Virus record (IMG/VR): IMGVR_UViG_3300046517_000639
Coordinates: 1-42,363 of that record
Source: a virus
Length of the DNA: 42,363 bases
Strand: one strand, 5' to 3'
Shown here: in pieces, positions 3,728-35,153 of the stretch
Layout: every line of letters begins with the position of its first letter
Position numbering within the stretch: position 1 is the first letter of the stretch
Translations under genes and position numbers: made by a program
The notes under the pieces: generated by a model
The model's input: the letters and a program-made list of their open reading frames with translations, nothing else
The model's database searches: none
Told to the model about the DNA's origin: nothing

Positions 3728-3739
3728 AATGGCGTAATC

Positions 3740-5146: not shown

Positions 5147-5244
5147 GCTACGAGGACGCACGAGAAGACATGGCCTACAGGTACGGAAGTGCAGTGGACT
5201 ACGAAGTTGAGGAAGAATCTGAGGAGGAATACGAAAATGAGTGA
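5143..5244 (+). CDS. Acidic miniprotein (33 aa)
   Basis: The 33-aa product is Glu/Tyr-rich (EVEEESEEEYENE at its end). ATGA overlap with the gene before, and an 8-base overlap with the next. Its 3' end carries the GAGGAGG that serves as ribosome site for the PEP-CTERM gene, so its translation may control that gene. Confidence 0.5.
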   Translation: MSYEDAREDMAYRYGSAVDYEVEEESEEEYENE

Positions 5245-7858: not shown

Positions 7859-8055
7859 TTATTTCTATTGCCAACCAAAATTCGGCGTCAAAAACGAACG
7901 CGATATTTGCGCCAGCGTGCGACGTTGCTTCAATGGACATTCCAGCGAAACTAATGCTCCTGCTAATCACAGGTTCTCCAGGCAACGGGCGGGTAGTCGA
8001 TCCCGCAATCACGGATACGTCCTGGTCCTTTTCTCAAGTTCTCGAAAAGCGTTAG
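7855..8055 (+). CDS. Uncertain small protein, GTG start (66 aa)
   Basis: A frame with a GTGA overlap on the preceding 55-aa frame and a 66-aa product (VIISIANQNSASKTNAIF...). The stretch 7859-8100 is open in other frames too, including 7812-8012 on the minus strand, and nothing in any of them is recognised. It may be a decayed gene or a leader before the methyltransferase. Confidence 0.3.
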   Translation: MIISIANQNSASKTNAIFAPACDVASMDIPAKLMLLLITGSPGNGRVVDPAITDTSWSFSQVLEKR

Positions 8056-8100
8056 GTATAAGCAAAGAGTGGACATCCTAGATTTGAGAAGGGAATCCGT

Positions 8101-8742: not shown

Positions 8743-9053
8743 ACCTAACTTACTTCCAGATAGCCGAGTGGCGCTTACTTGAATGGGAGCAACTCTACTC
8801 TCCGCTCAACGTCGCCGGCGAACTGCAAAAGATGAAGCAGTGGCTGGATGCCAACCCTCGCCGCCGCAAGAAGAACTACAACCGCTTCATCATTAACTGG
8901 CTGAACAAAGAGAGCGCACGAGTCGAACGCCAAGCCGTAGAGGCACGCAGCTATGCCAGAGTGGGCCACTACGAAGGCACCGGAGAGCACGCCTCGCCAG
9001 AGCGCGTACAGGAAGTGCTGGCTATGATTGAGAGACAGAGAGCGAAAAAGTGA
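8736..9053 (+). CDS. Replication-protein-like C-terminal module, probable AUU start (105 aa)
   Basis: From the ATG at 8832 the protein is 73 aa, but the 32 codons before it read sensibly (LDLTYFQIAEWRLLEWEQLY). They contain no ATG, GTG or TTG. A perfect AGGAGGTG at 8723-8730 lies 5 bases before an in-frame ATT at 8736. I therefore propose AUU initiation, overlapping the methyltransferase stop. The core MKQWLDANPRRRKKNY, then RFIINWLNK, resembles the C-terminal tail of phage replication-initiation or DnaD-like proteins. Its N-terminal winged helix would be missing here. GTGA overlap with methyltransferase 2. Confidence 0.6.
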   Translation: MLDLTYFQIAEWRLLEWEQLYSPLNVAGELQKMKQWLDANPRRRKKNYNRFIINWLNKESARVERQAVEARSYARVGHYEGTGEHASPERVQEVLAMIERQRAKK

Positions 9054-9679
9054 AGCCATATTATGAACATGCGGGAATCACGATTTACCACGGAGATTGC
9101 AGAGAAGTGCTGCCATCGCTGGAGCCTGTTGATTTGTTGCTGACCGACCCGCCATATGGAATCGGACGAGATGGCTCACGAGAAAGCACAGGAAGTCATG
9201 GTGGACGTAAGGCTTATGAGTTTTTGGGATGGGATGCGGAAATTCCTAGCAGGGAAACCTTTCGCGCAATGTTTGCGGCATCACGGGAACAAATTGTATG
9301 GGGAGGGAACTATTTCACAGCTTACTTACGCCCGACAATGGGATGGTTTGTTTGGGATAAAGGGCAGCGCATTGACCAATCGGACGGGGAACTTGCTTAT
9401 ACCTCTTTCGATAAAGCGCTGCGAATCTTTACTCTGAATCGAATGGCTATCGCTCAGGATGGAGCAGAACATCCAGCGCAAAAACCTGAAGAGCTTATGA
9501 AATGGTGCATGTTACAGGCAGGAGATGAGTTTCAGTTTATCCTCGACCCATTCATGGGCAGTGGCACCACGCTCCGAGCTGCGAAAGACTTAGGCCGCAA
9601 AGCAATCGGCATAGAAATCGAAGAAAAGTACTGTGAGATAGCAGCAAAGCGACTGAGTCAAGAAGTGCTCCAATTTTGA
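9050..9679 (+). CDS. DNA methyltransferase 2 (beta class, paralog)
   Basis: A 209-aa protein with GTG start. DPPY is at 33-36 and DPFMGSGTT at 166-174. The first 20 and last 45 residues are almost identical to methyltransferase 1 (MKPYYEHAGITIYHGDCRE; IGIEIEEKYCEIAAKRLSQE), while the middle differs (SHGGRKAYEFLGW; TAYLRPTMGWFVWDKG). Many differences in the shared ends are synonymous, so both copies look selected. It is likely to have a different target site. Orphan, with no partner endonuclease. Confidence 0.9.
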   Translation: MKPYYEHAGITIYHGDCREVLPSLEPVDLLLTDPPYGIGRDGSRESTGSHGGRKAYEFLGWDAEIPSRETFRAMFAASREQIVWGGNYFTAYLRPTMGWFVWDKGQRIDQSDGELAYTSFDKALRIFTLNRMAIAQDGAEHPAQKPEELMKWCMLQAGDEFQFILDPFMGSGTTLRAAKDLGRKAIGIEIEEKYCEIAAKRLSQEVLQF

Positions 9680-10675: not shown

Positions 10676-11466
10676 GCATCCGAACCAGCGAAGAAATTGA
10701 CGTATTGAGCGCAGCGCTGACGGCTGCACAATCCAAGTTTGGAGCAGCGCTAAAGGATTCAGACAATCCCTTTTTCAAGTCCAAATATGCCGATTTGAGC
10801 AGCGTCATTCAGGCGACGTTAGCGCACCTGAACGCCGAAGGCATAGCTTGTATGCAGCATCCCCAGTTGACCTACAGCGGTGAAGGCGATACGCGAGAAG
10901 CCCTGGTTACGGTAACGACTCGCTTGCAGCACAAGTCAGGGCAATGGATGGAATCGGATTTGAGCGTGCCGGCCCGTTTGCGGAACAACTTCGATGCCCA
11001 GAGCGTCGGATCGGGAGTTACTTACGCATGCCGTTATGCCCTGCAAAGCATCTGCTGCGTACCTCGTGAGGATGATGATGGCAATGCCGCTACTGGCAAC
11101 ACTGGCTCCAAGGAAGCCGCACAGGCCGTCGCCAAGGAAAAGATAAGCCAAGCAGCCAAGGCCGGCAATAAGACCGCTATAAAGGCACAGGAAGCGCAGG
11201 AAAAGGCATCTAGCGCAAAGGTCTCGACGCTATTTTACAGCTATCCAAGCAACCACAATGGCCATTTTGCCGAATGGCTGAACATTCCAGCTTACATTTG
11301 GGGCAACCAGGACAAGGAAGACGATCTCAGACTGGTGTTCTCGGCTCATGGCGCCAAGAAGGCCAAAGACGGCTCAGTCCTTGTTCCACAGGAGCGCATG
11401 GAAGCCTTGCTGACAGTTCTGGCCGGCGATTATGGCGTAGCAATTGAGGAGCTAAAGCCCCGATGA
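10672..11466 (+). CDS. erf: ERF-family single-strand annealing recombinase
   Basis: A 264-aa protein. The first 145 residues show the ERF pattern: LTAAQSKFGAALKDSDNPFF, KYADLSSVI, LQHKSGQW, and the Gly motif SVGSGVTYACRYALQSICCV followed by EDDDGNAA. These proteins anneal complementary single strands and in P22 circularise the genome by recombination between terminal redundancy, which suits headful packaging here. An Ala/Lys linker (150-190) leads to an unusual C-terminal domain (STLFYSYPSNHNGHFAEWLN). ATGA overlaps at both ends. No exonuclease partner was recognised, though 13022-13438 is a nuclease candidate. Confidence 0.85.
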   Translation: MSIRTSEEIDVLSAALTAAQSKFGAALKDSDNPFFKSKYADLSSVIQATLAHLNAEGIACMQHPQLTYSGEGDTREALVTVTTRLQHKSGQWMESDLSVPARLRNNFDAQSVGSGVTYACRYALQSICCVPREDDDGNAATGNTGSKEAAQAVAKEKISQAAKAGNKTAIKAQEAQEKASSAKVSTLFYSYPSNHNGHFAEWLNIPAYIWGNQDKEDDLRLVFSAHGAKKAKDGSVLVPQERMEALLTVLAGDYGVAIEELKPR

Positions 11467-11711
11467 GAGACATCAGAATGGACAACAGGCCCACCGCGCC
11501 GGAGGAACTGACGCTAATCCGCATCGGTCATCACCTTTGGCGTTCACGCAAGCGCAAGGAATGGCCGGAAGACGCGGTTTGCGCGGCGCTAGAGACGGTT
11601 TGGGGCATCAAGGAGACATTACGGATAGGTCTGCGGAAACAATGGCTAGAATCCTATGAAAAGCGCATAAACGACCTACGTCAAAGAGGCTTCGGAAAGG
11701 CGACCCAATGA
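11463..11711 (+). CDS. Basic helical protein (82 aa)
   Basis: An 82-aa protein with a basic N-terminal half (HHLWRSRKRKEWPEDAV) and helices after it. It lies between the recombinase and a winged-helix-like gene with ATGA overlaps. Probably part of a DNA-metabolism cassette; no family recognised. Confidence 0.55.
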   Translation: MRDIRMDNRPTAPEELTLIRIGHHLWRSRKRKEWPEDAVCAALETVWGIKETLRIGLRKQWLESYEKRINDLRQRGFGKATQ

Positions 11712-12004
11712 GCACCCAACCAGCCCCGCGCCAGCTTTTCCTAAGTGGACTCCGCAAGGCGAGTGCCGCGCACAAAGAATCACTCCTGGCAGCTCAGTGG
11801 ATCGCTGAACTGCTAGGAGCGCAAGGAGGTGAAGTCTCTGCGGATGATGTAACCAAGTACATAAGCCCAAAGGCTCTTGGCAACGCCAGTGGCGCTATTT
11901 TCCAAGGGGGAAGCTGGGAGCCTGTCGGGTTTAAGTGTAGCGAGCGGCCAGAGCGCAGGACGGGTGTGCAGCGGGTGTGGAGATTGCGCCGTGCCAACAC
12001 TTAA
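11708..12004 (+). CDS. Winged-helix-like phage protein
   Basis: A 98-aa protein. The C-terminal half, ALGNASGAIFQGGSWEPVGF then RRTGVQRVWRLRR, resembles a small phage family with the form LGNAAGSIFRGKEWRPTGxKxSxRxxxHAxxIRVWRL near recombination and replication genes. Predicted to be a small winged helix that binds DNA. The next gene starts inside its 3' end. Confidence 0.55.
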   Translation: MSTQPAPRQLFLSGLRKASAAHKESLLAAQWIAELLGAQGGEVSADDVTKYISPKALGNASGAIFQGGSWEPVGFKCSERPERRTGVQRVWRLRRANT

Positions 12005-13438: not shown

Positions 13439-13605
13439 AGAACCGCGATATAGGCAAATTCATTCTGTGGGCTTTGTTCTGGACTGGTGTAGTGGTATGG
13501 GGCTTGACGCTGCAAGGCTGCGGAAAGCACATCGGTGACATTCGAGAATGCAATTGTAGTTCTACGTCATGCAATAGACCGCTGCCTGGAGAGCCAACTC
13601 AATGA
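13411..13605 (+). CDS. Small lipoprotein or membrane protein (64 aa)
   Basis: ATG with AAGGAG 6 bases upstream, inside the end of the nuclease gene. The hydrophobic span ILWALFWTGVVVWGLTLQGC ends in a lipobox-like LQGC, followed by a short Cys-rich, Pro-containing tail (ECNCSSTSCNRPLPGEP). It could be an Rz1-like outer-membrane spanin component, but no partner was identified. Confidence 0.5.
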   Translation: MFRFSGDAIENRDIGKFILWALFWTGVVVWGLTLQGCGKHIGDIRECNCSSTSCNRPLPGEPTQ

Positions 13606-13685
13606 TTATGGTGCTCTGGATAATTATAGCTGTTCTGGTGATTTCATTGATTGCAGTGATTACAGAGATACGCAAACAAAAGTAA
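13602..13685 (+). CDS. Single-helix membrane miniprotein (27 aa)
   Basis: ATGA overlap with the gene before. The 27-aa product is one transmembrane helix (LWIIIAVLVISLIAVI) with a basic tail (EIRKQK). Its stop is 4 bases before the AAAAGGAG of the lipoprotein gene. Role unknown. Confidence 0.5.
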   Translation: MIMVLWIIIAVLVISLIAVITEIRKQK

Positions 13686-13696
13686 AAGGAGACTCA

Positions 13697-14074
13697 ATGA
13701 AGAAAGCATTTCCGGCCATGCTGGTAGCGATGCTGCTGATTGCGGGGTGTACGCCAGTTGAGCGTACTGCCTACAATACAGTAGTTGCAGCGAAGGCGTT
13801 TCTCGACAAGGAGAAACTATCCCATCCTGAATGCACAAACACTCCATCTTCGATAATTTGTGTCGATCTACAGAAAGCGGTAGCGGCAAAGGACGTGCTG
13901 ATTGACGCGATCACGGTTTATTGCTCCGGCCCTGACTTCAACGCTGGCGGTGCTTGCAATGCTCCGCAAAAGGGCACTGCGGCCTACGATCAGGCCGTAG
14001 CCAAGCTCAATGGGGCGATTGCTAACTGGAATCAAGTCTCTGCGGATCTGAAGGCTGTAACGGGAGGAAAGTGA
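13697..14074 (+). CDS. Phage-encoded lipoprotein (125 aa)
   Basis: AAAAGGAG lies 5 bases before the ATG. The N-terminus MKKAFPAMLVAMLLIAGC is a lipoprotein signal with a perfect lipobox, cleaved before C18. The mature part is helical with two cysteine pairs (HPECTNTPSSIICVD; YCSGPDFNAGGAC). It is probably anchored in the inner or outer membrane, in a block with other envelope proteins just before the lysis enzyme. Superinfection exclusion or a lysis accessory role are possibilities. Confidence 0.75.
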   Translation: MKKAFPAMLVAMLLIAGCTPVERTAYNTVVAAKAFLDKEKLSHPECTNTPSSIICVDLQKAVAAKDVLIDAITVYCSGPDFNAGGACNAPQKGTAAYDQAVAKLNGAIANWNQVSADLKAVTGGK

Positions 14075-17199: not shown

Positions 17200-17553
17200 T
17201 CAGACTTTGGGAGGATTATCTTCCACCTGCGTCTTGGCTACTGAAATTGCTTCCTTGGCCTTGTCCGTAGCTTCGGCAGCAACCTGTAACGTCTGCTGCA
17301 ACTGGTCTGGTGCGCCATGCAATTGCAGGAACTCGAACATCCGATAGCCACCTTGGAACAAGAACATTACGCCCATCAGCTTCAGCGTATTGCCTATGCT
17401 GTTAGAGAGATTGAATGTACCTGGAGCGATGCCGATACTGGTCAGGCCAGACACCATTGCCGCCGAGCCTCCACTGATGAATGATCGGAAGATGCCCAGC
17501 ATCCAGGTGGACCAATCATATGCGCGTGCGTTTACGACAGCAGTGAGTGTCAT
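17200..17553 (-). CDS. Holin-like protein (117 aa)
   Basis: AAGGAGAAAA precedes the ATG. NARAYDWSTWMLGIFRSFISGGSAAMVSGL, then FNLSNSIGNTLKLMGVMFLF and GGYRMFEFLQ, give two to three membrane-compatible segments. The C-terminal tail is helical and charged. I recall similar proteins (WxxGLxxxFISGGAGAV, LLxLMGVTF) annotated near phage lysis genes. It overlaps the end of the spike gene by 38 bases. Best holin candidate in the window, unproven. Confidence 0.55.
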   Translation of the reverse strand: MTLTAVVNARAYDWSTWMLGIFRSFISGGSAAMVSGLTSIGIAPGTFNLSNSIGNTLKLMGVMFLFQGGYRMFEFLQLHGAPDQLQQTLQVAAEATDKAKEAISVAKTQVEDNPPKV

Positions 17554-20416
17554 TTTTCTCCTTATAGCCTACAACCGCTCCAACTCTGAGTACCTTACGT
17601 CCCGTTGCTTGGCCCGTAAGAGGAACTGTGCGGGGACTGCCAAAAGCCGTATCTGTAAACACCAGATTGGCCGTTTTGCTGCCATTGGAAGTGGGGCTAA
17701 ACGTCACACTAACCGTGCATTGCGTTGCAGTGGCTTGTGTACCTGCACAAGTTGTAGTTTTGCTGAATTCACTGGCATTCGTTCCAGTTATGGTTATACC
17801 TAGCGTCACCGTCGAACCGCTGTTGTTGGAGTATGTCACAACCTGAGCAGCGCTCGATTTGTTCTTATTGATATTCCCGAAGTTGAGAGAGGCAGGCGAG
17901 ATAATCACTGGCGCCATGCCGGTTCCAGTCAAAACTGAGCAATCTGGCGAGTCTGGAGAATTGCTGCTCACGCAAGCCGTAGCCGTTTCTGTTGTTGTCG
18001 TTGTCGGCGTGAAAGCTATCATGACGGTGCAATTAGCTCCAGGAGCGACCACAAGGCTATTGGTGCAAGTTGTAGCTCCATCTATGACAAAATCAGCAGC
18101 ATTAGCCCCTGAGACAGTTACGGCATTTGAGCTGAACAAGATAAGGTTGGCGGTCCCGCTATTCATTACCGTAAACGGACTCTTGTTAGTTGTTCCTTCA
18201 GAAACAGGGTTCAAGAAAACAAGATTTGCCGGAGAGATATTCACTGCCGGCGCTAAGGCGATGACTGTACCAGTTGCTTGGTTTGAGTTGGCGCTGGTTC
18301 CAGCCGAATTAGACGATGCCACTACATAAAAATAGGTTCCCGCAGATAGGCCGGTATCGGCATAAGTGGTCGTAGTTGGCGAGGCTATGGTTGTATAGGG
18401 TCCACCGCTCACCGTTGCACGGCGAACCACATAATTAACAACCGTTCCCGTTGAAGCGTTCCAGGAAAGGTTAATAGTCGAGCCAGATACCGCCGCAGTG
18501 AGGCCAGTAGGCACGCTGGGAATGGATATAGCGTTGGTTCCCGCTCCTGTGAGTATGTCTGAACCATTTACCGTCCCTGTTACGCTCAAAGTGCCGGAAT
18601 AGCTGGTGACAGCCGTAGGAGTGAATTTAGCGAGCACTGTACAACTTGCGGAGACTGCAATCGTCCCGCTGGCAGCGCATTGCCCGCTTAGTCCGGTATT
18701 GCCATTGGTGAACACGCTGGGCGAAATTGCAATGCTTGAATAAGTCTCTGTCGCAGTTCCCACGTTCGATACGGTGATTGTCTTGGTTCCCGTGGTTCCA
18801 GTGTTCTGGTTCCCGAATGCCGCAGGGCTGGGGCTAAACGAAAGCAATGGAGCAGTGGTGCCTGTGGATTGAATAGCCCCAATATCCCATGCTCCAACTG
18901 ATGGCCGTGCATTGCCATTCAAATCCGTCTGGAGATAGGTGAGTGTCGCAAAGAGATTTAGCCCTTTATTCTTAGCGCAAGCATCGCCAGTAACCGGAGT
19001 AGCATTGTTAGGGAAAGCCCCGCCAATGAATCCGACATTGCAATTATTGCCATTCGTCTCCCGAGCAGGAGACAGTCCGCGCAACCCAGTCAGAGTGTAA
19101 TCCCCACCGAAAACATGCGCGATAGTGGGATAATTTAAGCTAGTCGTTGCGTACGTATCATAATCCCAGGAGGTAGACGAGGTGTACGATGCTATGCTGC
19201 CCGTATACACTGGCACCAATGAATTTCCGCAGCATAGGTTGGTAACGCCAAAGATGTTGTTGAGCACCGTAAGGTTGGTAACGATTCCGCGACTACTGTA
19301 AATGTTATAGCCGCCCGAATTGAGAAATGTATTGTTGGCTATGACGATATCATTCCACGTAGCGTTGCCGCTTCCATCCCCCTCGGCGTCAACGTTGCAG
19401 CCTCCAAATCCACCCGCAGAATCTAAAACGTTGTTATAAACCCTAATATGACCATTTGTGCTGCCAGCCGCTGCATTGTCCAGATAGCAGTTCTGGTCAT
19501 TGGAGCCATGAACATAATTACTATAGAGAGCGCAGTACTGAGCAGACTGACATTGAATAGAATCGGAATGTCCTGAACCGCTTACTCCGGTAACTTCATT
19601 GTGATAGATAGAGGCATTGTTGCCGACATCGATTCCATCTTCAAACAGATATTGGATAAAGTTGTCGTGGATTAGAGTATTGGTGAAGGTTGTTCCATTC
19701 AACGGCGGGAACGCTTTAATGCCCGTAGCGCAATACTGTTTCTGGGTATTGACGTGGTTAGGGTAGCATATAGTGGTTCCACCGCTAGTCGGCGCAGGGC
19801 CATGCACCCAGTTGTAACCAATTTCAAGAATGGCACTGGAACCTTGAGTGCCCATACCTCCGGCATAAAATCCACCCGTATAATCAGTAGTTCCTGTGAT
19901 CCCCGTTCCAAGGCATTCGATATGGAGAGCCTTCACATCATGCTCGCCGTTGTTCATGTAGCTACAGTACTTATCGACTCCAAGGTTGATAACGCGAATA
20001 CCATAGGTAGTGCTGCCGCCGAAGGCTGCGTTTCCAATTACACCGTCCACAGTGACATAGGCTTGACCGTTGAAATTAATTCCTGAACTAGACCCCTGAG
20101 TGTCAATGATTGCAGTTCCACCTCCACTGACTGAGACACGAACGACATTGCCAAGGGTGCCGGAAGATCCAATAGTCAATTGTCCGGTATAGGTGTCACC
20201 AGAAACCAGAAAGAGAGTGTCGCCGGCATGTACTGATCCCCATGCGATGCTAGATAATCCGCGCCAGCCGCCGACACCGCCAGGACTGCCGGCACAAGCT
20301 GCCGATGTACCGTCGCCGTTGTTGGCACAAGTGGTAGCCGAGCGCACGAACCAGTTCGTAGCGTTAGCCGCTGAAGCGCAGAATAAGAGGCCCATTGCTA
20401 GAAACAGACGTTTCAT
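17516..20416 (-). CDS. Exported-type beta-helix spike with Fn3 and HYDIN-like repeats
   Basis: A 966-aa protein. Residues 1-20 (MKRLFLAMGLLFCASAANA) are a clear Sec signal with an AxA site. Residues about 20-520 form a right-handed parallel beta helix of the pectate-lyase or tailspike type (repeats such as IVIANNTFLNSGGYNIYSS and LTVLNNIFG). Then come a HYDIN/ASPM-like domain (FSPSPAAFGNQNTGTTGTKT), a fibronectin III (PTGLTAAVSGSTINLSWNAS) and two more HYDIN-like domains (IIISPASLNFGNINKNKSS type). About 25 cysteines occur largely in pairs. Predicted to be a glycan-binding or -cleaving spike, built with domains typical of bacterial surface proteins. ATGA overlap with the gene before. Confidence 0.8.
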   Translation of the reverse strand: MKRLFLAMGLLFCASAANATNWFVRSATTCANNGDGTSAACAGSPGGVGGWRGLSSIAWGSVHAGDTLFLVSGDTYTGQLTIGSSGTLGNVVRVSVSGGGTAIIDTQGSSSGINFNGQAYVTVDGVIGNAAFGGSTTYGIRVINLGVDKYCSYMNNGEHDVKALHIECLGTGITGTTDYTGGFYAGGMGTQGSSAILEIGYNWVHGPAPTSGGTTICYPNHVNTQKQYCATGIKAFPPLNGTTFTNTLIHDNFIQYLFEDGIDVGNNASIYHNEVTGVSGSGHSDSIQCQSAQYCALYSNYVHGSNDQNCYLDNAAAGSTNGHIRVYNNVLDSAGGFGGCNVDAEGDGSGNATWNDIVIANNTFLNSGGYNIYSSRGIVTNLTVLNNIFGVTNLCCGNSLVPVYTGSIASYTSSTSWDYDTYATTSLNYPTIAHVFGGDYTLTGLRGLSPARETNGNNCNVGFIGGAFPNNATPVTGDACAKNKGLNLFATLTYLQTDLNGNARPSVGAWDIGAIQSTGTTAPLLSFSPSPAAFGNQNTGTTGTKTITVSNVGTATETYSSIAISPSVFTNGNTGLSGQCAASGTIAVSASCTVLAKFTPTAVTSYSGTLSVTGTVNGSDILTGAGTNAISIPSVPTGLTAAVSGSTINLSWNASTGTVVNYVVRRATVSGGPYTTIASPTTTTYADTGLSAGTYFYVVASSNSAGTSANSNQATGTVIALAPAVNISPANLVFLNPVSEGTTNKSPFTVMNSGTANLILFSSNAVTVSGANAADFVIDGATTCTNSLVVAPGANCTVMIAFTPTTTTTETATACVSSNSPDSPDCSVLTGTGMAPVIISPASLNFGNINKNKSSAAQVVTYSNNSGSTVTLGITITGTNASEFSKTTTCAGTQATATQCTVSVTFSPTSNGSKTANLVFTDTAFGSPRTVPLTGQATGRKVLRVGAVVGYKEKNDTHCCRKRTRI

Positions 20417-21798
20417 AGGATTTGTCCTTTATGCCGCGTTGCCGTTGCTGGTGGAGATGAAATTCCCATAGAAAGAGTGGCGATGATTGGCCGAACGCTG
20501 CCTGCTGACATAGCACAACTGGTTGTATTGCTTCCAGCCGCAGTGGTTAAAATGGATTGCGTTAACTGTTGGTCCGAGGCAGCGAAGGAAGTATCTATGT
20601 CGGTTCCACTAGCTATTTGCAATTCACTGCTGTTAGGAACAAGAGGATTGGTGATAGCGTCAAAACAAACTGTGAAAGTCTGCTCATTATTTGCGGCTGT
20701 AGTATAGGAAGTGGTCAAAGCCAATGCGGAGGTTTCTGAGCCTGCGTCCAATACGCCTGTCAATCCAGCCCATTCAGCGGCTTGGATAAATAGCCCTGTC
20801 TGGCCCAGCCCTCCATGCATATTTATGCCTACGCTATATGTCGATTGATTGGTATTTGTCGAAGCGATGCATAAACCTGCCTGAACGTTTATCCCTGCAT
20901 AGACGTGGGGAGTATTGCGAGCATTTGCTGGACAGTTACAACTCGTACCCAAGCATAGGGCAATGTCGGCAGGATCAAAAGCATCCGCAAACCCATACAC
21001 GATTATGTTATTAGCCGTGTAGTTGTGGAGAGCACAGGTTGCACTAGTGCGCGTGGTATCAGGGTAGGCGAAGTAGCAGCTCTGCAATTTGTATACTGAT
21101 GGCTTCGTAGGAGCATTTTGGGTAAATGCCATCGCCACAATGGAAGGCAGAGGAAATGGACTTGATTCATCATATTGAGCGGTAACACTTCCAGCCCCAC
21201 CTGTAATCTGCGACCAGGAACCAAATTTAATGTTCTGAGAACCAATCAAGGCATCAGTCATTCCCCACTGCTCTTGGAAGAATCCAGTATGAGGAGTTAG
21301 GTCATTAGCGAGGTCTGCCCCTCCCACATCCAACCACTCGCTTGCGTTGGCCGTGGTAAGTGAGCATGAAGCGGCACCGGCAGTGCAATTAGTGTCAAAC
21401 GCAACCAGCCCAACTTTCTCCCTGGCTCCTACCCACAAAACACGATTGAATCCCCCTGAAGATGTTGCGGTAACAGTGAAAATTGCATGATTGGAAGCAG
21501 GAAATAGGTAGCAACCAGTAGTCTGCCATCCATTTGTGGCATTAACGCCGCTGAAGCAAGCGGTGGGAGTTTCCGGAGAACTGGTTATGCTAATAGTTGT
21601 GGCCGCGCCAGATGCGTACATTAAAACGGCACGTCCAGCAACTGTGTTGGCCATCGTGCAGGATACACTTGTGATTCCTCCGGCATTCTGGCGCGGAGAC
21701 CCACATTCATTGGAGGTGTATGGTCCAGTAACAGCATGAACTTTGTGCGAACAGAGCAGGAGCAAAAGAAGAACGAGTAGATATTTTACTCTGTGCAA
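20413..21798 (-). CDS. Exported-type lectin-like tail/fibre protein
   Basis: A 461-aa protein with TTG start. MHRVKYLLVLLLLLLCSHKVHA is a strong signal peptide. The mature part has two jelly-roll/lectin-like domains (AGGITSVSCTMANTVAGRAV; later YTANNIIVYGFADAFDPADI) of the type repeated elsewhere in this genome. At least 14 cysteines, often in pairs (IALCLGTSCNC). It ends in an ATGA overlap with the spike gene. Probably a surface-binding component. Confidence 0.7.
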   Translation of the reverse strand: MHRVKYLLVLLLLLLCSHKVHAVTGPYTSNECGSPRQNAGGITSVSCTMANTVAGRAVLMYASGAATTISITSSPETPTACFSGVNATNGWQTTGCYLFPASNHAIFTVTATSSGGFNRVLWVGAREKVGLVAFDTNCTAGAASCSLTTANASEWLDVGGADLANDLTPHTGFFQEQWGMTDALIGSQNIKFGSWSQITGGAGSVTAQYDESSPFPLPSIVAMAFTQNAPTKPSVYKLQSCYFAYPDTTRTSATCALHNYTANNIIVYGFADAFDPADIALCLGTSCNCPANARNTPHVYAGINVQAGLCIASTNTNQSTYSVGINMHGGLGQTGLFIQAAEWAGLTGVLDAGSETSALALTTSYTTAANNEQTFTVCFDAITNPLVPNSSELQIASGTDIDTSFAASDQQLTQSILTTAAGSNTTSCAMSAGSVRPIIATLSMGISSPPATATRHKGQIL

Positions 21799-24146
21799 GA
21801 AAGCACCCCGTTCACGAATTTGGCGGTAGCAACTACGGTCACATTCATGGCCATGATGTCATTGGCGGTGACGGTAGTTGTTGTGAAGTCACCCAAGGAA
21901 GTGGAGTGTATCGCTGTACCGCTCGATATGCCTACACCACTGGTGTTGATTGAATTGCCGCTGGTCGGAATGGCTGTTCCTGTGGCTATCTTCCAGAACT
22001 TGACGGTGATCGTTCCAGCATCGATATTCAGATTGTAGGCATCGATTGTGCAGGCAAATGGCACGGTGATGTAATCAGTAGTCGTACTTGCAGCCGTTAG
22101 CGCTGAACCAGCCGGATCGCCAACTGTGAAGCTGATACCATGCTTGCTGTGCAATGTAGGCGAGGCCGAAGTACCGCCTAGTCCACCTGCCAACTGTACA
22201 AGTCCAGCCTGTCCGGTAGTCGCTAGAGGTACTTCTAAACTGATGCTGTCCGTGTTTCCGGCTGCGGAAGTTTGCACCACTAGATTCTGATTGTTAGCTC
22301 CAGCTGCTGGTGTCGTGGAATTGAAATTCTTGATGTTCTTGGTAGTTGCTGTGCCATTGACCTGTACTTGCAGATTGCGGCCATTGCCACCGCTGATGCT
22401 CGATGCGTTTAGCTCTGAAGGTGTCAGGTTGCGAATGATTGCCGCCGTGCCGGCACCAGCGTTGCCACTGTAGATATACCAGTAAGATTGTCCATTTGTG
22501 GGGATGGTCGTTCCTACATCGCTCAAATCTCCGTTTACCGTGGTGCTGGATTGGGCATAATGGCCAGCCGTCGCGCCATTGTCCATAATGACTGAGCAAA
22601 ATCCGATGATGCAGATTCCTGTAGAGCCTGTATTGCCTGGAGTTGCTCCATTCGCCGCTACTGCTACACCTAGTGGATTGTTGGTCGTGGACGATGCAAA
22701 CGGGCAGATAATGGCTTTGCCTGTTCCATCATCGCAGGCGAGTTTATTTAGCGTTGTTCCTGTAGCTGCATTGTTTGTCGCCCACCAGAGATAAGCACCG
22801 AGCTGGTTAACGTCATAGCCATTGTCGCAGCGTACCGCTGTAGTGCCATCATCCAATCCGCAACCATTGCCCACCGTCGCTGCACCAGTCCATTTCGTGT
22901 CGTGATTGGCCGTACCCGCTCCGGTGATCGTTCCACCGCCACCTCCAGCCGCCGCTATCGAGATGGCATAAGCCGCTGGTGTTAGCGTGATGTTTGTGCT
23001 GGCAGTCAGAGGAACTGGTGAGCAGCGGTCATAGTACGTTCCAGGTGCCGTAGGATCTGAGAAAATGGAACAACCAATTCCCTGCGATATGGTTAACGTA
23101 TTTGAACCAGTTGAGAAGAAAGTCGAAGTAGTGGCCGTGATCGTTGCCAGTCCCGCTCCATCATTCTTGATGAAAGTGAACCAGTTTCCATCAAAAGAAG
23201 TGGCCTCACTGGCTTGAGGAAGTGATAGGGCTTTAGCGCCAACGGCGGTCAAATAAAGAATCTCTCCTCGCTCTGTTCCATCGAAAGTATAAGAAGTAGC
23301 ACTGACGACAATCGGAGGTACGCCAGGAGTGCAGTTTACGAATGTTGGAGGAACTGCCGTGCTGTCCCAGCAGATCGTATCGCCCTCCTGAATATTGGTG
23401 ATTTGAGCCGTAATTACTGTTCCACCGCTGGAAGATGATGGAGGCCCAAGGTCAATCAGCGTCCATTTACCGCCAGATAGCAGGAATCCAGCAATGTCTC
23501 CACTCGTAACGCCACTTGGCACAAATGAAGGGATAATGCTATCGGCGCCTTGATTGCCATGATAATTCAAGCCTGTCGCATCGAAGCACAGTTGACCGCT
23601 AGAAGTTGCCGTACAGCCAGCTATTAAGGGGACTGTCATTCCCGAAGTCTCGCCTGATAGGTCAAGGCCAGGACCGCCACCAAAAGCTAGCGTGCCGTTA
23701 CCTTGATTGAAGCTCTTATTGGTGTTCTGGTCCGTTACTTGGTCTAGGCGTGGGAATCCTGGTGGAGGTGCTGGACCGGAATTGGTACTGCCCTGAGAAG
23801 TGTAAGTCAGCCCATCGTTCCAAATGTCTGCACCCTGCCCTGATTGCAAAACTAAGTTTGCTTGCCCATTAATCGTGCTAGTAGAAGTGATTGTGACCGT
23901 ACCAGCGCCGATATTCTTGACGCTGAACATGATTCCAGGCCCTGAACATGAGTCACTGGCTGCAAACAGCGTAGCCGCTACCGCACTGCCATTGTTGAAA
24001 GTGACTAGTTTTGTCGCATCGGTGCAAACGAATGTATAAGTAGTTCCAGTCTGGGCATTGACGCCAGAAAGCATGCGAGCCGTATTGGTCTGCGCTTGAG
24101 TACTGACTGCAAAGAAAAAGGCTAGGAATAGCAGCTTCTTTTTCAA
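21786..24146 (-). CDS. Exported-type fibre protein (786 aa)
   Basis: Start set at the TTG at 24146 (TTGA overlap, GGAG 8 bases upstream), which begins with a signal peptide LKKKLLFLAFFFAVSTQAQ. The frame from 24179 would put 11 odd residues before it. The mature protein is Thr/Gly/Ser-rich beta structure, with a segment like phage decoration domains (GNWFTFIKNDGAGLATITAT), a loop with DTICWDSTAVPPTFVNCTPG, and many paired cysteines. Probably a trimeric fibre. The C-terminus (FACTIDAYNLNIDAGTITVK) looks like a receptor-binding tip. Confidence 0.75.
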   Translation of the reverse strand: MKKKLLFLAFFFAVSTQAQTNTARMLSGVNAQTGTTYTFVCTDATKLVTFNNGSAVAATLFAASDSCSGPGIMFSVKNIGAGTVTITSTSTINGQANLVLQSGQGADIWNDGLTYTSQGSTNSGPAPPPGFPRLDQVTDQNTNKSFNQGNGTLAFGGGPGLDLSGETSGMTVPLIAGCTATSSGQLCFDATGLNYHGNQGADSIIPSFVPSGVTSGDIAGFLLSGGKWTLIDLGPPSSSSGGTVITAQITNIQEGDTICWDSTAVPPTFVNCTPGVPPIVVSATSYTFDGTERGEILYLTAVGAKALSLPQASEATSFDGNWFTFIKNDGAGLATITATTSTFFSTGSNTLTISQGIGCSIFSDPTAPGTYYDRCSPVPLTASTNITLTPAAYAISIAAAGGGGGTITGAGTANHDTKWTGAATVGNGCGLDDGTTAVRCDNGYDVNQLGAYLWWATNNAATGTTLNKLACDDGTGKAIICPFASSTTNNPLGVAVAANGATPGNTGSTGICIIGFCSVIMDNGATAGHYAQSSTTVNGDLSDVGTTIPTNGQSYWYIYSGNAGAGTAAIIRNLTPSELNASSISGGNGRNLQVQVNGTATTKNIKNFNSTTPAAGANNQNLVVQTSAAGNTDSISLEVPLATTGQAGLVQLAGGLGGTSASPTLHSKHGISFTVGDPAGSALTAASTTTDYITVPFACTIDAYNLNIDAGTITVKFWKIATGTAIPTSGNSINTSGVGISSGTAIHSTSLGDFTTTTVTANDIMAMNVTVVATAKFVNGVLSCTE

Positions 24147-25333
24147 GGATGGACTCCAGTGCAGTTGATCTGCGTCCAATGAATAGGCGAAGAACCTACA
24201 GTAACAGTCCTGACGGCCACAGAAACAGTATTCTGTGAAGCAATTTGCAGATTGGCTCTACCCGTAGTTGGATTTCCACCGTCCACAGCCGTTACTCCAC
24301 TGCAAGTCACAGAGTAATTGGCATCTGCGAAAACCACCGGCCATGCAATCGAGTTGTCGCAAGTGTCAAAGGTAGAGCCTCCAGTTGTGCAAGGCGTCCC
24401 TGTAACGACACAGCCCACCGCGCAATATGTCACTGCTTGAATCTTGCTTGCTCCGATGCTGCAACTTAGTGTAGTCAGGCCGGAATTGGCGTCCAGGCAG
24501 ACATTAGTACCAGCTCCACCAGTAATCATGCCTGCCGTCATCAAATGATTGTCTGAGCCCTGTGTAGCAACTTGCGGAGTGCCGCCGGCAAGCGTGAAGC
24601 TATTCGCCAGTAACGTAGTCACCGAGGCCGTATTGGGAGTGGTTGAGCCTAGAGGGCAGGGAATCGCCCATGTGCAGCCATTGAGCAAACCTGCATTCAG
24701 GTTATTGACTTGCGTGGTGCTGGAGATGACGAAGGGAGGCGTGCCTGTTGCCAGCGTCGAAGTGATTTGGCCGCTAAACGTTCCCGTAGTGGAGGAAAAG
24801 CCGTTACTAAAACTAGGTACACCAGAAAATACAGGAGTCCCAGTAAACGTTCCATCTAGGATGCCTCCACCACTCATGTTGTTTGGCCCTGAGGATGTGA
24901 AGCCGGAGTTGAATGTCACGCTGGAATTGAAGATAGCCGTATTGTTCCAGGTGTTTTGTCCTGTCCAAATATTGTTGAGTCCTAGGAGCGTATTATTGGC
25001 CGACGAAATATTATCCTCGCTCCAAAGCGTGACTCCCGCAGAGGTTTGCATGATGAATTTGTAGGCAACTGGAGTCATCCATACATCTGCCCTTCCAGCC
25101 GCATCCATGACGATTGGATTTGTATTCGGAATAACCCCAGCGGAATCACGATAAGTAAGTAGTGGAGTTGTAGTTCCTGCCGAATAGCTGAATAGTTTGC
25201 AACCTACACAGGGCCTTCCGTTATTATCGAAAAATTGTGACTTCGTGAATGGATAAAGGGCTACTTGAGCACTGGAAACAGAAGAAAAGACTAGAAAAAA
25301 CAAGAAGATTATAAGAAAATGGCTGAGCAGCAA
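24143..25333 (-). CDS. Tail fibre with signal-like N-terminus (ORF open to 25891)
   Basis: The body starts near 25333: a TTG followed by LLSHFLIIFLFFLVFSSVSS, a signal peptide ending before AQVALYPFTKSQFFDNNG. Next comes the domain GCKLFSYSAGTTTPLLTYRD...NPIVMDAAGRADVWM...YKFIMQ, a known N-terminal domain of phage tail fibres. Thr/Ser beta repeats and several cysteine pairs follow. The frame stays open upstream to an ATG at 25891 that makes the usual ATGA junction with the ejection gene and encodes MKKLLLLLALL, another signal-like start. An endonuclease gene on the other strand lies between. The present start is uncertain. Confidence 0.7.
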   Translation of the reverse strand: MLLSHFLIIFLFFLVFSSVSSAQVALYPFTKSQFFDNNGRPCVGCKLFSYSAGTTTPLLTYRDSAGVIPNTNPIVMDAAGRADVWMTPVAYKFIMQTSAGVTLWSEDNISSANNTLLGLNNIWTGQNTWNNTAIFNSSVTFNSGFTSSGPNNMSGGGILDGTFTGTPVFSGVPSFSNGFSSTTGTFSGQITSTLATGTPPFVISSTTQVNNLNAGLLNGCTWAIPCPLGSTTPNTASVTTLLANSFTLAGGTPQVATQGSDNHLMTAGMITGGAGTNVCLDANSGLTTLSCSIGASKIQAVTYCAVGCVVTGTPCTTGGSTFDTCDNSIAWPVVFADANYSVTCSGVTAVDGGNPTTGRANLQIASQNTVSVAVRTVTVGSSPIHWTQINCTGVHP

Positions 25334-25354
25334 ATTCCTATGTGAGGTAGGAAC

Positions 25355-25873
25355 ATGCCAAAACGTCGGATGCGCCGACATTCTGTTGCTCAGCCGATTG
25401 ACCAGCCTTACAGATTCATCCCGCTTACGCAAGAGCAAAACGCTATTGTTGATACTAGAGACTTCGATTGGATTTCGCAGTGGAATTGGTCTGCCCGTTG
25501 GTGTCCAGATACTAAAAGTTTTTACGCATTTCGACACGGAAACATAATGATGCATCATGTAATCCTTGGTATTCGCTGCGAAGTTGACCACAAAAATGGG
25601 GATACCTTGGATAACAGAAGAACAAACCTTCGCCAATGCACGCACTCTCAAAACATTCAAAATCAACCTGGAAACCGCCTTAATACCAGCGGATACAAGG
25701 GGATTTACTTCCATGAGTGTGGGAAGTGGCAAGCCAAAATCACCTGCAATGGGAAGCGAATGCACTTGGGACTTTTCTCCACCAAAGAAGAAGCGGCAAG
25801 GGCTTATGATCGCAAAGCTAAAGAACTGCATGGTGATTTTGCATGGCTGAATTTTCCTGAGCAAAGCCAGTAG
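25355..25873 (+). CDS. HNH-AP2 homing-type endonuclease inserted in the late operon
   Basis: A 172-aa protein. An N-terminal segment (YRFIPLTQEQNAIVDTRDFD) leads to the HNH core with H67/H68, H79 (CEVDHKNGDTLDNRRTNLR), N91 and N100, then an AP2 DNA-binding domain at 112-167 (SGYKGIYFHECGKWQAKI, then LGLFSTKEEAARAYDRKA). Free-standing genes of this type spread by cutting unoccupied sites in related phages. It has its own ribosome site (GTAGGAAC) but opposes the late operon. It sits just inside the ATGA start of the fibre gene and is codon-aligned with an open antisense frame. Confidence 0.85.
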   Translation: MPKRRMRRHSVAQPIDQPYRFIPLTQEQNAIVDTRDFDWISQWNWSARWCPDTKSFYAFRHGNIMMHHVILGIRCEVDHKNGDTLDNRRTNLRQCTHSQNIQNQPGNRLNTSGYKGIYFHECGKWQAKITCNGKRMHLGLFSTKEEAARAYDRKAKELHGDFAWLNFPEQSQ

Positions 25874-25887
25874 CAGAAGTAGTTTCT

Positions 25888-26769
25888 TCATTCTGTAAAC
25901 TTCTTTCCCATGCGCTGCTGCAAGGTAGTTCTCTTGTTAACTGAGCCTTGCGCGGCATGATACATACCTGCATCACTTGCTTGCTGCTGCAAAACTCTCA
26001 TCTGCTGCTGATAGGCGGCAAACTCTTCTGGAGTGGCAACCAATGGATTAAGAGGCTTCGGCATTCCTGCTGCTTTCTTAGCTATAAATTCTTGCTTGGC
26101 TTGCTCAAACAAGTCTGCTTTAGCCTGTTCTTTGGCTAATTTTGCTTGCTGGATTTCATCCATTGTTTTCAATCGGCCCATCTGTGAAAGTTCCTGCTGA
26201 CGTTGTTTTTCTAATTGGGCCAGATTCTTAGCAAATACGTTATGCGCTTCTTGTACATCTTGATCAACTCCGAAAACTCTCCTAAGAGCGTACTCTCCAC
26301 CTTTTTCCACTGGATGCGCCACAGCCTTACCCAAAGCCGTTAGTTCACCCTCTGGGGTTAGGAGCTTATTGGCAATTATTCCTTTGGCGAAGTTATAAGT
26401 GCCTTCTGCTAATCCTCCACCAATTAGGCTGCCTACATCACCGCTGACTTCCTGACCGAGCTCTCCAGCACCAGAGATTCCAGCAGCAGTGCTACCAACA
26501 AGTGAACCAGCAGTGCCACCAACTAAAGCCCTTGCCGCAGAGGCCGGTGATGCACCAGCAGCACCAAGAGAACCAGCAAATAAACCTGTTTTTGCGCCTT
26601 CATATGCTGCCCTACCTGGAGACATGCCCTCTGCTGGATTGGGCAGATTGCGAATTCTGGCATTAGGAACAAATTGCGAAGAACTAGGAGCAGCCTGCTG
26701 AGCAGCGCTTTCCTCTACTGGAGTCCAAGCCGAAGTATCCTCTACGGGAGTCCAGCCAGTATTGCTCAT
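25888..26769 (-). CDS. Ejection (injection) protein, gp16 position
   Basis: A 293-aa protein starting at the ATGA overlap (MSNTGWTPVEDTSAWTPVEE, a tandem WTPVE repeat). A Gly/Ala/Ser-rich segment (TGLFAGSLGAAGASPASAAR to LIGGGLAEG) could insert in membranes. The rest is coiled coil (LEKQRQQELSQM, AKLAKEQAKADLFEQAKQEF). It is the third of three genes in the P22 order gp7-gp20-gp16, whose products leave the head with DNA and form a channel across the envelope. Confidence 0.7.
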   Translation of the reverse strand: MSNTGWTPVEDTSAWTPVEESAAQQAAPSSSQFVPNARIRNLPNPAEGMSPGRAAYEGAKTGLFAGSLGAAGASPASAARALVGGTAGSLVGSTAAGISGAGELGQEVSGDVGSLIGGGLAEGTYNFAKGIIANKLLTPEGELTALGKAVAHPVEKGGEYALRRVFGVDQDVQEAHNVFAKNLAQLEKQRQQELSQMGRLKTMDEIQQAKLAKEQAKADLFEQAKQEFIAKKAAGMPKPLNPLVATPEEFAAYQQQMRVLQQQASDAGMYHAAQGSVNKRTTLQQRMGKKFTE

Positions 26770-28355
26770 GGCTTTTGCTCCTGTTTCCAACCAGTCGGCA
26801 GTGCTGTTCCAGCAGGGGCTTGATGTAACTTTCCTTGAGGATCGCGAGCGTAGATAACATTAGGGGCTGCACCCTTTTTACCAGTCAGATCGGGATGCGC
26901 TTCAGTAGGATTGACTCCACGAATGTTGGGAACACGTTCACGCAAGCGATCAATGTCTGCCTGAAATTTCTTACCTTGTCCTAGAGCATAATTGGCATCA
27001 GCCGATGATCCACTGGGAAGTGTCTGAAACAAAGCACTGCTTTGGGTTTCGCTGGTACGCGAACCTCCAGTGATTTCCTTCGGCAAGCCTAGAGATGTTT
27101 CCTTCAATTGAAGAACAGACTGAATATATTCCTTGGTTTGAGGGGTAGCAGCCTTTAGAGCTAGATTCCTGATAGCGTCATTAATCACTCCAGGTTCACT
27201 GTGAGAAAGAACCTTGGAAATGATGGCCCGCTGTTCTGGCCCTTGGTTCAGAGCCTCACGCGAAGCCATAACATCATTTAACTTGGTCTGCATGGTGTTC
27301 AGGACCACAGTATGTGTTTTGGCGTCGTCTATTTGCTTGGGAGTAGCCTCTGTAATCCCTGTATAACCAGCAGCCTTGGCATCGCCTTCAGGCAACAAAT
27401 GCGCTTGATTGCTTGAATCGTAGGCCAAAACTGGCTTGGCGGCATGTTGCGCCTGAGCATCGGCATGGGCTTGCTTAGAAAGTTGCAAATTCTGAAGCTG
27501 TACCCCATGAGCAAACTCTTGTTGTGCTTTTACACCTTGCGCTTGTTCTGTTTGAGTAAGGATTTTATCGATTCTGTCAAAATCCTTCTGTGTGGCATTG
27601 GCTGGTAGAGTATATTCCGCTGGCAATGCTGCACCTGGATTCAGAACCTGAAAGCGCCGAGCAAGCCCTTGATTCAGTTGTGGAACCTTTTCCCCTAGAG
27701 GCAATTCACCTTCTTTTACTGTTCCCGCTGCACGAATTTCGGCTACCTTTCTCTCATTCTCCATTTTCTGCTGGATAGGCGATGCTGCCCTTGCTGAATC
27801 CACAAGTTGTTTAAATTGCTGTGGATTGGAATCAATCAACTGCCGCATTTGCTGGATTTGAGGACTATCCCCTAATGGATCAAGCAGGCGATGGGCAACC
27901 CTAGGATCATAGTTGGCCTGTTGTATTGCATATGCGGCATGACCAAAAAGATCGGATTGGTCCTCTTGCAATTTCTGCATTTTGGACTTCATATCCACCA
28001 AAGAAGTCTGATATTTGGTGACGCCTTCTAGGATTCCAGGGATAGCCGAGCCATGCCCAGACATTCTCAAGGCTTCTGAGAGCTTGTTTGTATCTATTTT
28101 CGGCTGGCCATTCTCATCTGGAATTACAGAGTTTTTATAGGCATCATCCAGAGCTTTCTGTGTCTCTATCTGGCGTTTCTGAGCCTCCATTTGCATTTGC
28201 TGCATCTGCAATTCATTCTGCTGGCCTTGCAACTGTCCAGGCGCTAGAGCGTTCTGGTTCTTCATGCCCTGGATCTGCTGCGCTTGCGCGATGTTTGTCG
28301 CGTAATCGTTGATTTGCGGCTGCCGGCCCATCAGGGCTACAAGTGGGATGCCCAT
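26766..28355 (-). CDS. Ejection protein, gp20 position (Gln-rich)
   Basis: A 529-aa protein, Gln-rich and helical at the start (LQGQQNELQMQQMQMEAQKR), then mixed helices. This composition and position match P22 gp20-like DNA transfer proteins, though the sequence itself is not recognised. It overlaps the next gene by ATGA and touches the stop of the gene before. Confidence 0.65.
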   Translation of the reverse strand: MGIPLVALMGRQPQINDYATNIAQAQQIQGMKNQNALAPGQLQGQQNELQMQQMQMEAQKRQIETQKALDDAYKNSVIPDENGQPKIDTNKLSEALRMSGHGSAIPGILEGVTKYQTSLVDMKSKMQKLQEDQSDLFGHAAYAIQQANYDPRVAHRLLDPLGDSPQIQQMRQLIDSNPQQFKQLVDSARAASPIQQKMENERKVAEIRAAGTVKEGELPLGEKVPQLNQGLARRFQVLNPGAALPAEYTLPANATQKDFDRIDKILTQTEQAQGVKAQQEFAHGVQLQNLQLSKQAHADAQAQHAAKPVLAYDSSNQAHLLPEGDAKAAGYTGITEATPKQIDDAKTHTVVLNTMQTKLNDVMASREALNQGPEQRAIISKVLSHSEPGVINDAIRNLALKAATPQTKEYIQSVLQLKETSLGLPKEITGGSRTSETQSSALFQTLPSGSSADANYALGQGKKFQADIDRLRERVPNIRGVNPTEAHPDLTGKKGAAPNVIYARDPQGKLHQAPAGTALPTGWKQEQKP

Positions 28356-29260
28356 TAGCTGTTACCCACATTGATAAACGGATTCGTGATTAGGCTGCTA
28401 TTGAGGTTTGTAGGCAGATTCCCGCTAGGCGTGCCTTGGGTGTCTCCAGGCATGTAGCTTGGACCACCGTAGCCGCTGTTTCCCCCGCCGCCGAATGGAT
28501 TGCTGGCAAAATAGCCCGCTGCATTGTTGGCGATACCGCCTAGCGCCCCTTGCCATGCGTTGTTTGCTCCCATGATGCCGCTGGCTTGCGCTGCACCTTG
28601 GTTTTGGAGCGCTCCACCGATCTGCTGGCTTGCTGCATTGTTGATTCCAGCAATATTCCCCGCACCAGACTGGAGCAATCCTCCTAGTGTCGAACCGGCC
28701 TGAGCACCCAATTGCGACACGCCTGCAAGTCGATTGTAGAGATTGCCTTGATTGGTGTTGTAGGTGTTGAAGTTGGTTCCATAGGTCTGCAACGCTCGAT
28801 TATAGACATTCCCATATTCGTTAGAAGCTTGGTTTTGTGCATAGTCGTTGATGTTCTTCGCTGTACCGCTCGAGAGTAGCCCTCCACGCGCCGCTGCGCT
28901 GTTCTGGAGCGCTTGCAAGCCTTGGCTGAGCCTAAACTGGTATCCAGGATCGTTCTGCTCTGTAACGCCCGTTGGAGCGTTAAACTGCCCATAGCCCTGT
29001 GTAAGCTGGCCTCCAGGCTGAAGTAATGAGGAAAGATTGCCGATGGAGGATTGGCCGGCTTGGGCATAAGGGCTGAGTAATCCGGTCTGTTGCCCTGCAA
29101 TTTTGGTTTGATAGTCGGTGGATAGGTTCTGGTTCTGGCCGGCGACGTTGGCGGCTTGTGCGGCTGCATTGGCTTGCTTGGCGGCTGCATCTCCCGCCGC
29201 GTGTGAACCTAAGATTCCACCTAAAAGGGATGCTCCGGCGCCTATTGCGGCAACTGGCAT
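28355..29260 (-). CDS. Ejection protein, gp7 position
   Basis: A 301-aa protein with GGAGG before the ATG. A Gly/Ala membrane-like start (MPVAAIGAGASLLGGILGS) is followed by DPGYQFRLSQGLQALQNSAA, LSSGTAKNINDYAQNQASNE and YNRLAGVSQLGAQAG. This is a widely shared pattern of podovirus internal or DNA-transfer proteins. Ala/Gln/Asn-rich and flexible. It is the first of the three ejection genes. Confidence 0.8.
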   Translation of the reverse strand: MPVAAIGAGASLLGGILGSHAAGDAAAKQANAAAQAANVAGQNQNLSTDYQTKIAGQQTGLLSPYAQAGQSSIGNLSSLLQPGGQLTQGYGQFNAPTGVTEQNDPGYQFRLSQGLQALQNSAAARGGLLSSGTAKNINDYAQNQASNEYGNVYNRALQTYGTNFNTYNTNQGNLYNRLAGVSQLGAQAGSTLGGLLQSGAGNIAGINNAASQQIGGALQNQGAAQASGIMGANNAWQGALGGIANNAAGYFASNPFGGGGNSGYGGPSYMPGDTQGTPSGNLPTNLNSSLITNPFINVGNS

Positions 29261-34502: not shown

Positions 34503-35153
34503 TTAGCTCAAAACTACCACGCCTGCGGAAGCTCCGTTACTCAAAACTTCCCAGACCAAGTTGCAAGCCCGAAGTTTGAGGTAAGCGCCCCTGAATGCCG
34601 GAAAAGTAGCCAGACTCTTGAGAGCCGTGCCATTTGCCAGCAACGTGGTTGCCGTCAGAGTGTGAGCGTTCGTGGTGTCAGAAACGATTTCAATGATGTT
34701 TCCTTCAGCCGCAGCCGTAGGAGCCGCCAAAGTCATTGCGTCCACTCCAGCAGTCTTCACAACATAGAAGCCTGGGATAGTAGCGTCAATGGCATCAGCA
34801 GAACCGCTCAGCACGATACCTGGCTGAACGTGAGTGGTGCTGGTTTCCTTGAACGCTGCAAAGGTTTGGTATTGCTCAGTAACCAGCGGAAAGTCTGCTG
34901 GCAAACCCGCCAAAACAATGGCGTTGTTGACATGAGCAACCGAGACTGAACCGCTGACACCACGTACCACGCTGACTACCTTGGAAGTGGTGTTGAGTCC
35001 AGTCACCAGCATGTATTCCTGATCCAGAAGCAGGATGGTGATACCGATGCCTGTCTGGAAGTTAGGGGAGGTAATCCCCGTGGTGGCTGCCACGATTACA
35101 GAAGTGTCATTTGCTCCAACTGCGGCGGTTACGGTTGTGGCTACTATGCTCAT
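34503..35153 (-). CDS. Capsid decoration/head-fibre-like protein (216 aa)
   Basis: AAGGAG precedes the ATG. Residues 1-95 form one beta domain (VTAAVGANDTSVIVAATTGI; ITILLLDQEYMLVTGLN; RGVSGSVSVAHV). Residues about 115-210 are the domain repeated in the next gene. The gene directly follows coat, with 9 bases between. Probably decorates the head surface. Confidence 0.65.
   Translation of the reverse strand: MSIVATTVTAAVGANDTSVIVAATTGITSPNFQTGIGITILLLDQEYMLVTGLNTTSKVVSVVRGVSGSVSVAHVNNAIVLAGLPADFPLVTEQYQTFAAFKETSTTHVQPGIVLSGSADAIDATIPGFYVVKTAGVDAMTLAAPTAAAEGNIIEIVSDTTNAHTLTATTLLANGTALKSLATFPAFRGAYLKLRACNLVWEVLSNGASAGVVVLS

Follow-up and report, generated by a model that had tools for sequence, protein, structure and literature searches.

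Signal-bearing spike genes are, on the evidence of their predicted N-termini, a real and conserved trait linked to phages of the Acidobacteriota, and what is new in them is the routing of a tailspike. The genes were studied in a virus record of 42,363 nucleotides (IMGVR_UViG_3300046517_000639, positions 1 to 42,363; hereafter the window) and in related loci from viral contigs and bacterial genomes.

The spike genes of the window and their predicted signals

The window begins and ends with the same 127-bp direct repeat (positions 1-127 and 42237-42363) and is therefore probably complete, with a circularly permuted genome of ~42.2 kb; no tRNA genes were found in it. Its late operon is on the minus strand and encodes a P22-like portal, scaffold and coat, as well as head-closure and ejection-type proteins. 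Three ejection/internal-type genes (25888-26790, 26766-28355 and 28355-29260, minus strand), whose products lack both cysteine and signal, are placed directly upstream of the gene for P0004. The product of 28355-29260 matches phrog_598 (DNA ejection), and relatives of the window ejection gene are present in loci L065, L113 and L142. The genes of P0004 (24143-25333), P0003 (21786-24146), P0002 (20413-21798) and P0001 (17516-20416), all on the minus strand, follow directly 3′ and are joined by 4- to 13-base overlaps. These four ORFs (17516-25333) and their N-termini were found as the original prediction had described them.

Signals were called with a rule-based detector calibrated on ~40 genes of E. 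coli K-12, in which nine exported proteins scored at least 4.66 and one inner-membrane protein was a false positive. P0003 (786 aa, fibre-like, TTG start, signal MKKKLLFLAFFFAVSTQA^Q, 16 mature cysteines), P0002 (461 aa, TTG start, signal HRVKYLLVLLLLLLCSHKVHA^V, 14 mature cysteines) and P0001 (966 aa, signal MKRLFLAMGLLFCASAANA^T, 24 mature cysteines) scored 5.35, 6.45 and 5.11, like exported E. coli proteins, and composition-matched random N-termini reached these scores 0, 0 and 1 times in 2000. All three begin with basic residues, followed by a hydrophobic core and then by a cleavage site with small residues, as in signals of the Sec/signal peptidase I type. None of the remaining large late genes of the window scored as signal-bearing in the detector, and the twin-arginine motif is absent from the N-termini of P0001-P0004. 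The body of P0001 consists of a beta-helix-like N-terminal part with Fn3 and choice-of-anchor-D (ASH/HYDIN) domains, and the C-terminal 120 aa of P0003 are common to proteins of other phages; in the deposited phage collection no relatives of P0001 or P0003 were found.

The claim of Sec signals on all four products held for P0001, P0002 and P0003, which are clear in the window, while the signal of P0004 is clear only in relatives, being split here by an HNH/AP2 endonuclease gene (25355-25873, plus strand; phrog_99, E 2.6e-43; Pfam HNH_3) that sits as an antisense insert in the signal codons. The native remnant, MKKLLLLLALL (25859-25891, minus strand), is ATGA-coupled to the upstream ejection-type gene, and its DNA hardly differs from the beginning of the L002 signal, which is intact (MKKLLLLLALLFALPVYG^Q); the signal is likewise intact in L003 and L004. 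The downstream piece, LLLSHFLIIFLFFLVFSSVSSA^Q, read from a TTG start at which no clear ribosome site is visible, is hydrophobic and has the SSA^Q site and no basic residue, and a reading from the ATG at 25378 scored only 4.05 in the detector. An internal start at the Met in QVALMPF, which would give a signal-less spike, was rejected, as neither the window nor L004 conserves it. The left flank of the HNH gene matches L002 almost perfectly, the sequence beyond it has diverged on both sides, and TGCTCAG is found at both ends of the element; from these flanks it looks as if the element came from an L002-like donor. Rfam revealed no group I intron around the HNH gene.

Elsewhere on the plus strand of the window, the gene at 5189-5812 encodes a 207-aa protein ending in STPEPMTIVLLFCGLLYFFAISRKTRPQ, a PEP-CTERM-like sorting tail, with a possible signal; this protein has no Pfam or NCBIfam match, and a similar gene is found at 11129-11764 of the genome G797. 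A possible lipoprotein is encoded at 13535-14074 (lipobox MKKAFPAMLVAMLLIAGC^T), and two similar N6/N4 DNA methylase genes lie near each other at 8101-8742 and 9050-9679.

P0004 resembles known tailspikes in its domain, fold and position. The first ~90 residues of its mature form match the head-binding domain of the tailspike in PDB 7eeq (profile search, E 5.9e-15), and this virion-attachment domain (24989-25264, minus strand) starts a few residues past the predicted cleavage site and is followed by a fibre body, with 12 mature cysteines in the protein. An AlphaFold2 model of the domain, built from 50 sequences, had a pLDDT of about 90, and Foldseek assigned it a probability of 1.00 to the head-binding domains of Pan3, Pam1, P22 and Sf6 (9vyg, 7eeq, 1lkt, 8tvr); the full-length model, with a mean pLDDT of 39.8, was too poor for use, and P0004 gave no Pfam match. 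Its place after the ejection proteins is where Xanthomonas phage PBR31 has its tailspike. By profile, predicted fold and position, then, P0004 is a phage tailspike, and it is the only one of the four products with a recognised virion-binding domain. The P22-like tailspikes (P22 gp9, Sf6 gp14, Pam1 and Pan3) have the same N-terminal domain in profile and fold, and their genes also lie after the ejection proteins and before the lysis region. P22-type spikes, however, lack a signal, and both their synthesis and their attachment take place in the cytoplasm, whereas the P0004 type is cysteine-rich and carries a cleavable-looking Sec signal, which is present in all close relatives of P0004 and whose predicted removal would yield a matching N-terminus.

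A comparison of the window with L002 outlined a sharp edge in this gene. Inside the head-binding domain, third-position identity at conserved residues was 0.28-0.36 with an amino-acid identity of 0.72-0.83, while just past the domain third-position identity rose to 0.83-0.90. This jump at the domain edge suggests that the body of P0004 was exchanged there recently and that the attachment domain stayed with the upstream genes. From these substitution patterns, the domain appears to be under purifying selection and to travel with the divergent upstream virion genes, and such a junction is in keeping with an N-terminus that has to suit the virion to which the protein belongs.

Signals in related phages and the link to Acidobacteriota

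The signals are retained by homologues in the related phages L002, L003 and L004, as the original prediction had proposed to check, while the bodies behind them have been swapped or deleted. P0001 and its homologue in L003 share the signal and the C-terminus and differ in the body behind the signal. The L002 homologue of P0002 has ~230 extra residues behind a different signal, and in the window the signal of P0002 sits directly on the second domain of the L002 form. Runs of consecutive signal genes after the ejection proteins were found in L002, L003, L004, L065 and L142, an acidobacterial prophage remnant (L134/L135) also has a run of signal-bearing genes, and the loci L007, L009 and L010, in which the C-terminus of P0003 recurs, have signal-bearing genes too, in the case of L009 within a siphovirus-like gene order. 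Complete metavirome genomes are among the carriers of this architecture. In L113, a signal-bearing gene (3309-4106) directly follows the coat gene; its counterpart in the window (34503-35153) has no signal.

The head-binding domain permitted a comparison of hosts. A signal precedes it in four of the five hits in Acidobacteriota genomes (L106, L113, L128 and L129, but not L130) and in 0/17 other genomes (Fisher P = 7e-4), the domain starting the protein without a signal in all 17 readable non-acidobacterial genomes; L113 comes from a phage contig of a metagenome bin, which makes its host less sure than those of L106, L128 and L129. In a second draw of 398 Pseudomonadota genomes, eight had domain hits, and the four readable places were all without a signal. 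Seven phage records on deposit (PBR31, DSL-LC05, P26218, PAE2 and three Manatee Spring genomes) likewise lack a signal, and their domain starts no further than about a dozen residues from the N-terminus. Only a small set of the domain loci from viral contigs and genomes has a signal, and on a domain tree built from few columns the signal label needs four gains or losses, at least two of them forced, compared with 12.6 in shuffles.

Single signal-bearing genes also occur after the tailspike in PBR31 (L014, 7127-7951, annotated as a putative structural protein) and in Rhodoferax phage P26218 (L016, 6715-7224), and the feature may therefore extend, weakly, beyond the Acidobacteriota. The L106 hit (7935-9665) is an acidobacterial chromosomal gene that combines a signal with a head-binding-type domain. 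No prophage is visible around it, and a prophage origin was rejected, as it is a single chromosomal gene among housekeeping neighbours; it is a possible domesticated exported tailspike, and a lone exported protein of this kind implies that the domain can have a use away from virions.

At E <= 1e-10, the choice-of-anchor-D/Fn3 region of P0001 had matches in 17 of 149 genomes of Acidobacteriota and in none of 150 genomes of Pseudomonadota. Together with the distribution of the head-binding domain, these matches lead us to infer that the host of the window phage belongs to the Acidobacteriota. P0001 shares these domains with acidobacterial proteins, in agreement with another proposal of the original prediction, namely that the genes were captured from host surface-protein genes and keep the signal. 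In one form of this explanation the signal would be a relict, either unused or part of a protein that is assembled uncleaved. Capture fits that part of P0001 only, and P0004 is of phage type; moreover, signals have been kept on four to six adjacent unrelated genes through domain swaps and deletions. We consider capture with a relict signal improbable.

The same architecture is present in cultured phages. Tunturi_1 and Tunturi_2, which are podoviruses, have five or six signal-bearing genes in a row (gp12-gp17) and the siphovirus Tunturi_4 has two (gp113 and gp114); no such run was seen among the genes checked in Tunturi_3, and 50 kb of Tunturi_5 were inspected. Like the window, these three Tunturiibacter phages (PP887698, PP885685 and PP885687; PMC11924767), grown on an Acidobacteriota host, have signal-bearing, cysteine-rich tail-type genes in runs, here of two to six, with almost no sequence similarity to the window proteins. 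The term 'signal peptide' is absent from the main text of the paper that describes them (PMC11924767), and in the open-access literature, subscription journals being outside the scope of our search, no paper turned up that describes tail-spike genes in runs with signal peptides. The suggestion that an exported module of this kind is undescribed stands, then, in that no open-access paper remarks on it, but not for the architecture itself, which was already deposited with Tunturi_1, 2 and 4.

Cysteine content and parity of the mature proteins

Cysteine-rich bodies had been predicted as well, and the counts agree: the 966-aa P0001 has 25 cysteines compared with 6 in the 702-aa portal, and the 461-aa, 786-aa and 396-aa products have 15, 16 and 12 in total. 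The signal genes of the window hold 2.1-3.2 cysteines per 100 aa, against a median of 0.33 and a maximum of 1.24 for the rest (P = 9e-4). Congruently, signal-bearing proteins from all the phage-type loci fetched had a median of 1.96 cysteines per 100 aa compared with 0.57 in the controls, and proteins with the head-binding domain had a median of 2.8 when a signal was present and 0.84 when it was not (P = 6e-7).

The mature cysteine count was even in 25 of the 27 non-redundant signal-bearing proteins with at least six cysteines (P = 2.8e-6). When the signal was retained in the count, the number fell to 15 of 27, and the controls gave 57 of 103; the shifts from odd to even are due to single cysteines inside the signals. 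With lower thresholds, even counts were obtained in 31 of 37 proteins (at least two cysteines) and 26 of 31 (at least four). The automated set of 27 keeps both odd members, of which L004 6380-8032 looks like a case of a mis-placed cleavage site and L007 1194-3434 like a false positive of the detector. A hand-picked set in which 20/20 proteins were even was set aside, as it had omitted genes with fewer than four cysteines, some of them odd. The even mature counts point to full disulfide pairing after signal removal, and that parity becomes even only once the signal is removed also argues against a relict signal.

Parity bears on a further explanation, in which the hydrophobic N-termini would serve virion proteins as helices for assembly or membrane insertion, for example in DNA ejection, and would not be Sec signals. 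Podovirus ejection proteins do interact with membranes, and the N-terminus of P0004 in the window has no basic n-region. The parity shift, however, indicates that the N-terminal segment must be removed; unrelated bodies share a Lys/Arg start, a Leu-rich core and an A^Q cleavage site, and the ejection-type proteins of the window have neither such an N-terminus nor cysteine. The helix explanation is very improbable in our judgement.

Proposed export and assembly of the spikes

Tailed-phage spikes are understood as cytoplasmic proteins that are added to the particle before lysis; those of P22 go on last and are able to attach to completed heads in vitro. For the phages described here, the sequences make it very likely that the products of the spike runs in phages of soil Acidobacteriota are exported, and such virus parts are probably disulfide-bonded outside the cell interior, where parts of tailed viruses are not expected. 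In the path that we propose, the four genes would be the spike/fibre set of a P22-like podovirus with an Acidobacteriota host; since each product carries a predicted Sec signal, each would be exported and the signal cut at an A^Q-type site. In the oxidising periplasm, the cysteines would pair completely into disulfides, as the even mature counts suggest, and cleavage would expose the head-binding domain of P0004 with an N-terminus matching that of signal-less tailspikes. The spikes would then join the tail as the envelope breaks at lysis, when particles would meet the periplasmic pool. P0003, P0002 and P0001 would probably either belong to the same complex, as additional spikes, branches or depolymerases, or be exported enzymes in free form. 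The original prediction of export or of an unusual assembly is thus supported in part, by the conserved signals, the even mature cysteine counts and a virion-attachment domain directly behind a signal; the whole path, from the export of virion spikes through their oxidation in the periplasm to their union with particles at lysis, is a proposal that we put forward tentatively, at somewhat less than even chances. No direct precedent is known to us for tailed phages whose spikes are assembled outside the cytoplasm.

A signal-less 1031-aa fibre/BNR-like protein is encoded between the terminase and the portal of the window, on the minus strand, by a gene that runs across the contig end to ~1094, the segment 40235-42361 being its 3′ part. 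L002 has a relative of this protein, and at the same place L003 has a signal-bearing protein of 594 aa. Because of the 1031-aa gene, the idea that the exported genes are the sole spike candidates was dropped for the window; it holds for G797, a genome that is complete by its 119-bp end repeat, in which every large spike-like gene, including one between terminase and portal, is signal-bearing and no signal-less large spike candidate was found.

Since this protein could serve the virion, which may then not depend on the exported set, it keeps alive the main rival of our proposal, that is, export without attachment. The exported products would in this case be decoys or matrix enzymes that act off the virion by coating cells or debris, by blocking receptors and so preventing superinfection and the loss of progeny, or by loosening extracellular polysaccharide before release. 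Signals and paired cysteines require export only, bacteria have exported tailspike-like enzymes such as WceF (Foldseek match 6tgf), and with L106 an acidobacterial chromosome carries a lone exported homologue. On the other hand, the head-binding domain of P0004 recombines along with the virion module and is apparently maintained by purifying selection, which a free enzyme would not require, and the complete genome G797 showed no large spike candidate without a signal. We hold the off-virion role to be doubtful, if still a substantial possibility, and return to spikes that are exported and then joined to particles.

Known exported systems resemble these genes in part. Lom and Bor of lambda are exported phage morons of late operons, signal-bearing in or beside the late region like the window genes, but they are small single outer-membrane or lipoproteins, not spike-like and not in runs of four to six. 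WceF of Pantoea stewartii, an exopolysaccharide glycosidase with a tailspike fold (PMC7949094), shares with P0004 the combination of a tailspike-like body and an export signal, although it is encoded by a single bacterial gene in an exopolysaccharide cluster and uses a Tat signal, whereas the signals of the window are of the Sec type and occur on consecutive late genes of a phage. Exported endolysins (fOg44 Lys44 and SAR endolysins; PMC6116005) are late phage proteins that use the host Sec system, as proposed here, but they are lysis enzymes and not virion spikes, and they lack a head-binding domain.

The export idea is directly testable with Tunturi_1, 2 and 4, which are cultured phages of a soil host, and in other genomes the cysteine-parity test offers a cheap way of spotting virus proteins that are exported. 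Spikes rich in disulfides may be suited to conditions in soil. It is plausible, though on balance we would not yet count on it, that certain tailed phages of Acidobacteriota finish their virions beyond the cytoplasm: receptor-binding spikes would leave by way of Sec, acquire their disulfides in the periplasm and be fitted to particles at lysis, the spikes of one lysed cell could be shared among particles, and exported spikes may act on the surface before lysis. If true, virion completion would be divided between two compartments, and the spikes would be a possible shared good among particles, with a possible role at the host surface already ahead of lysis.
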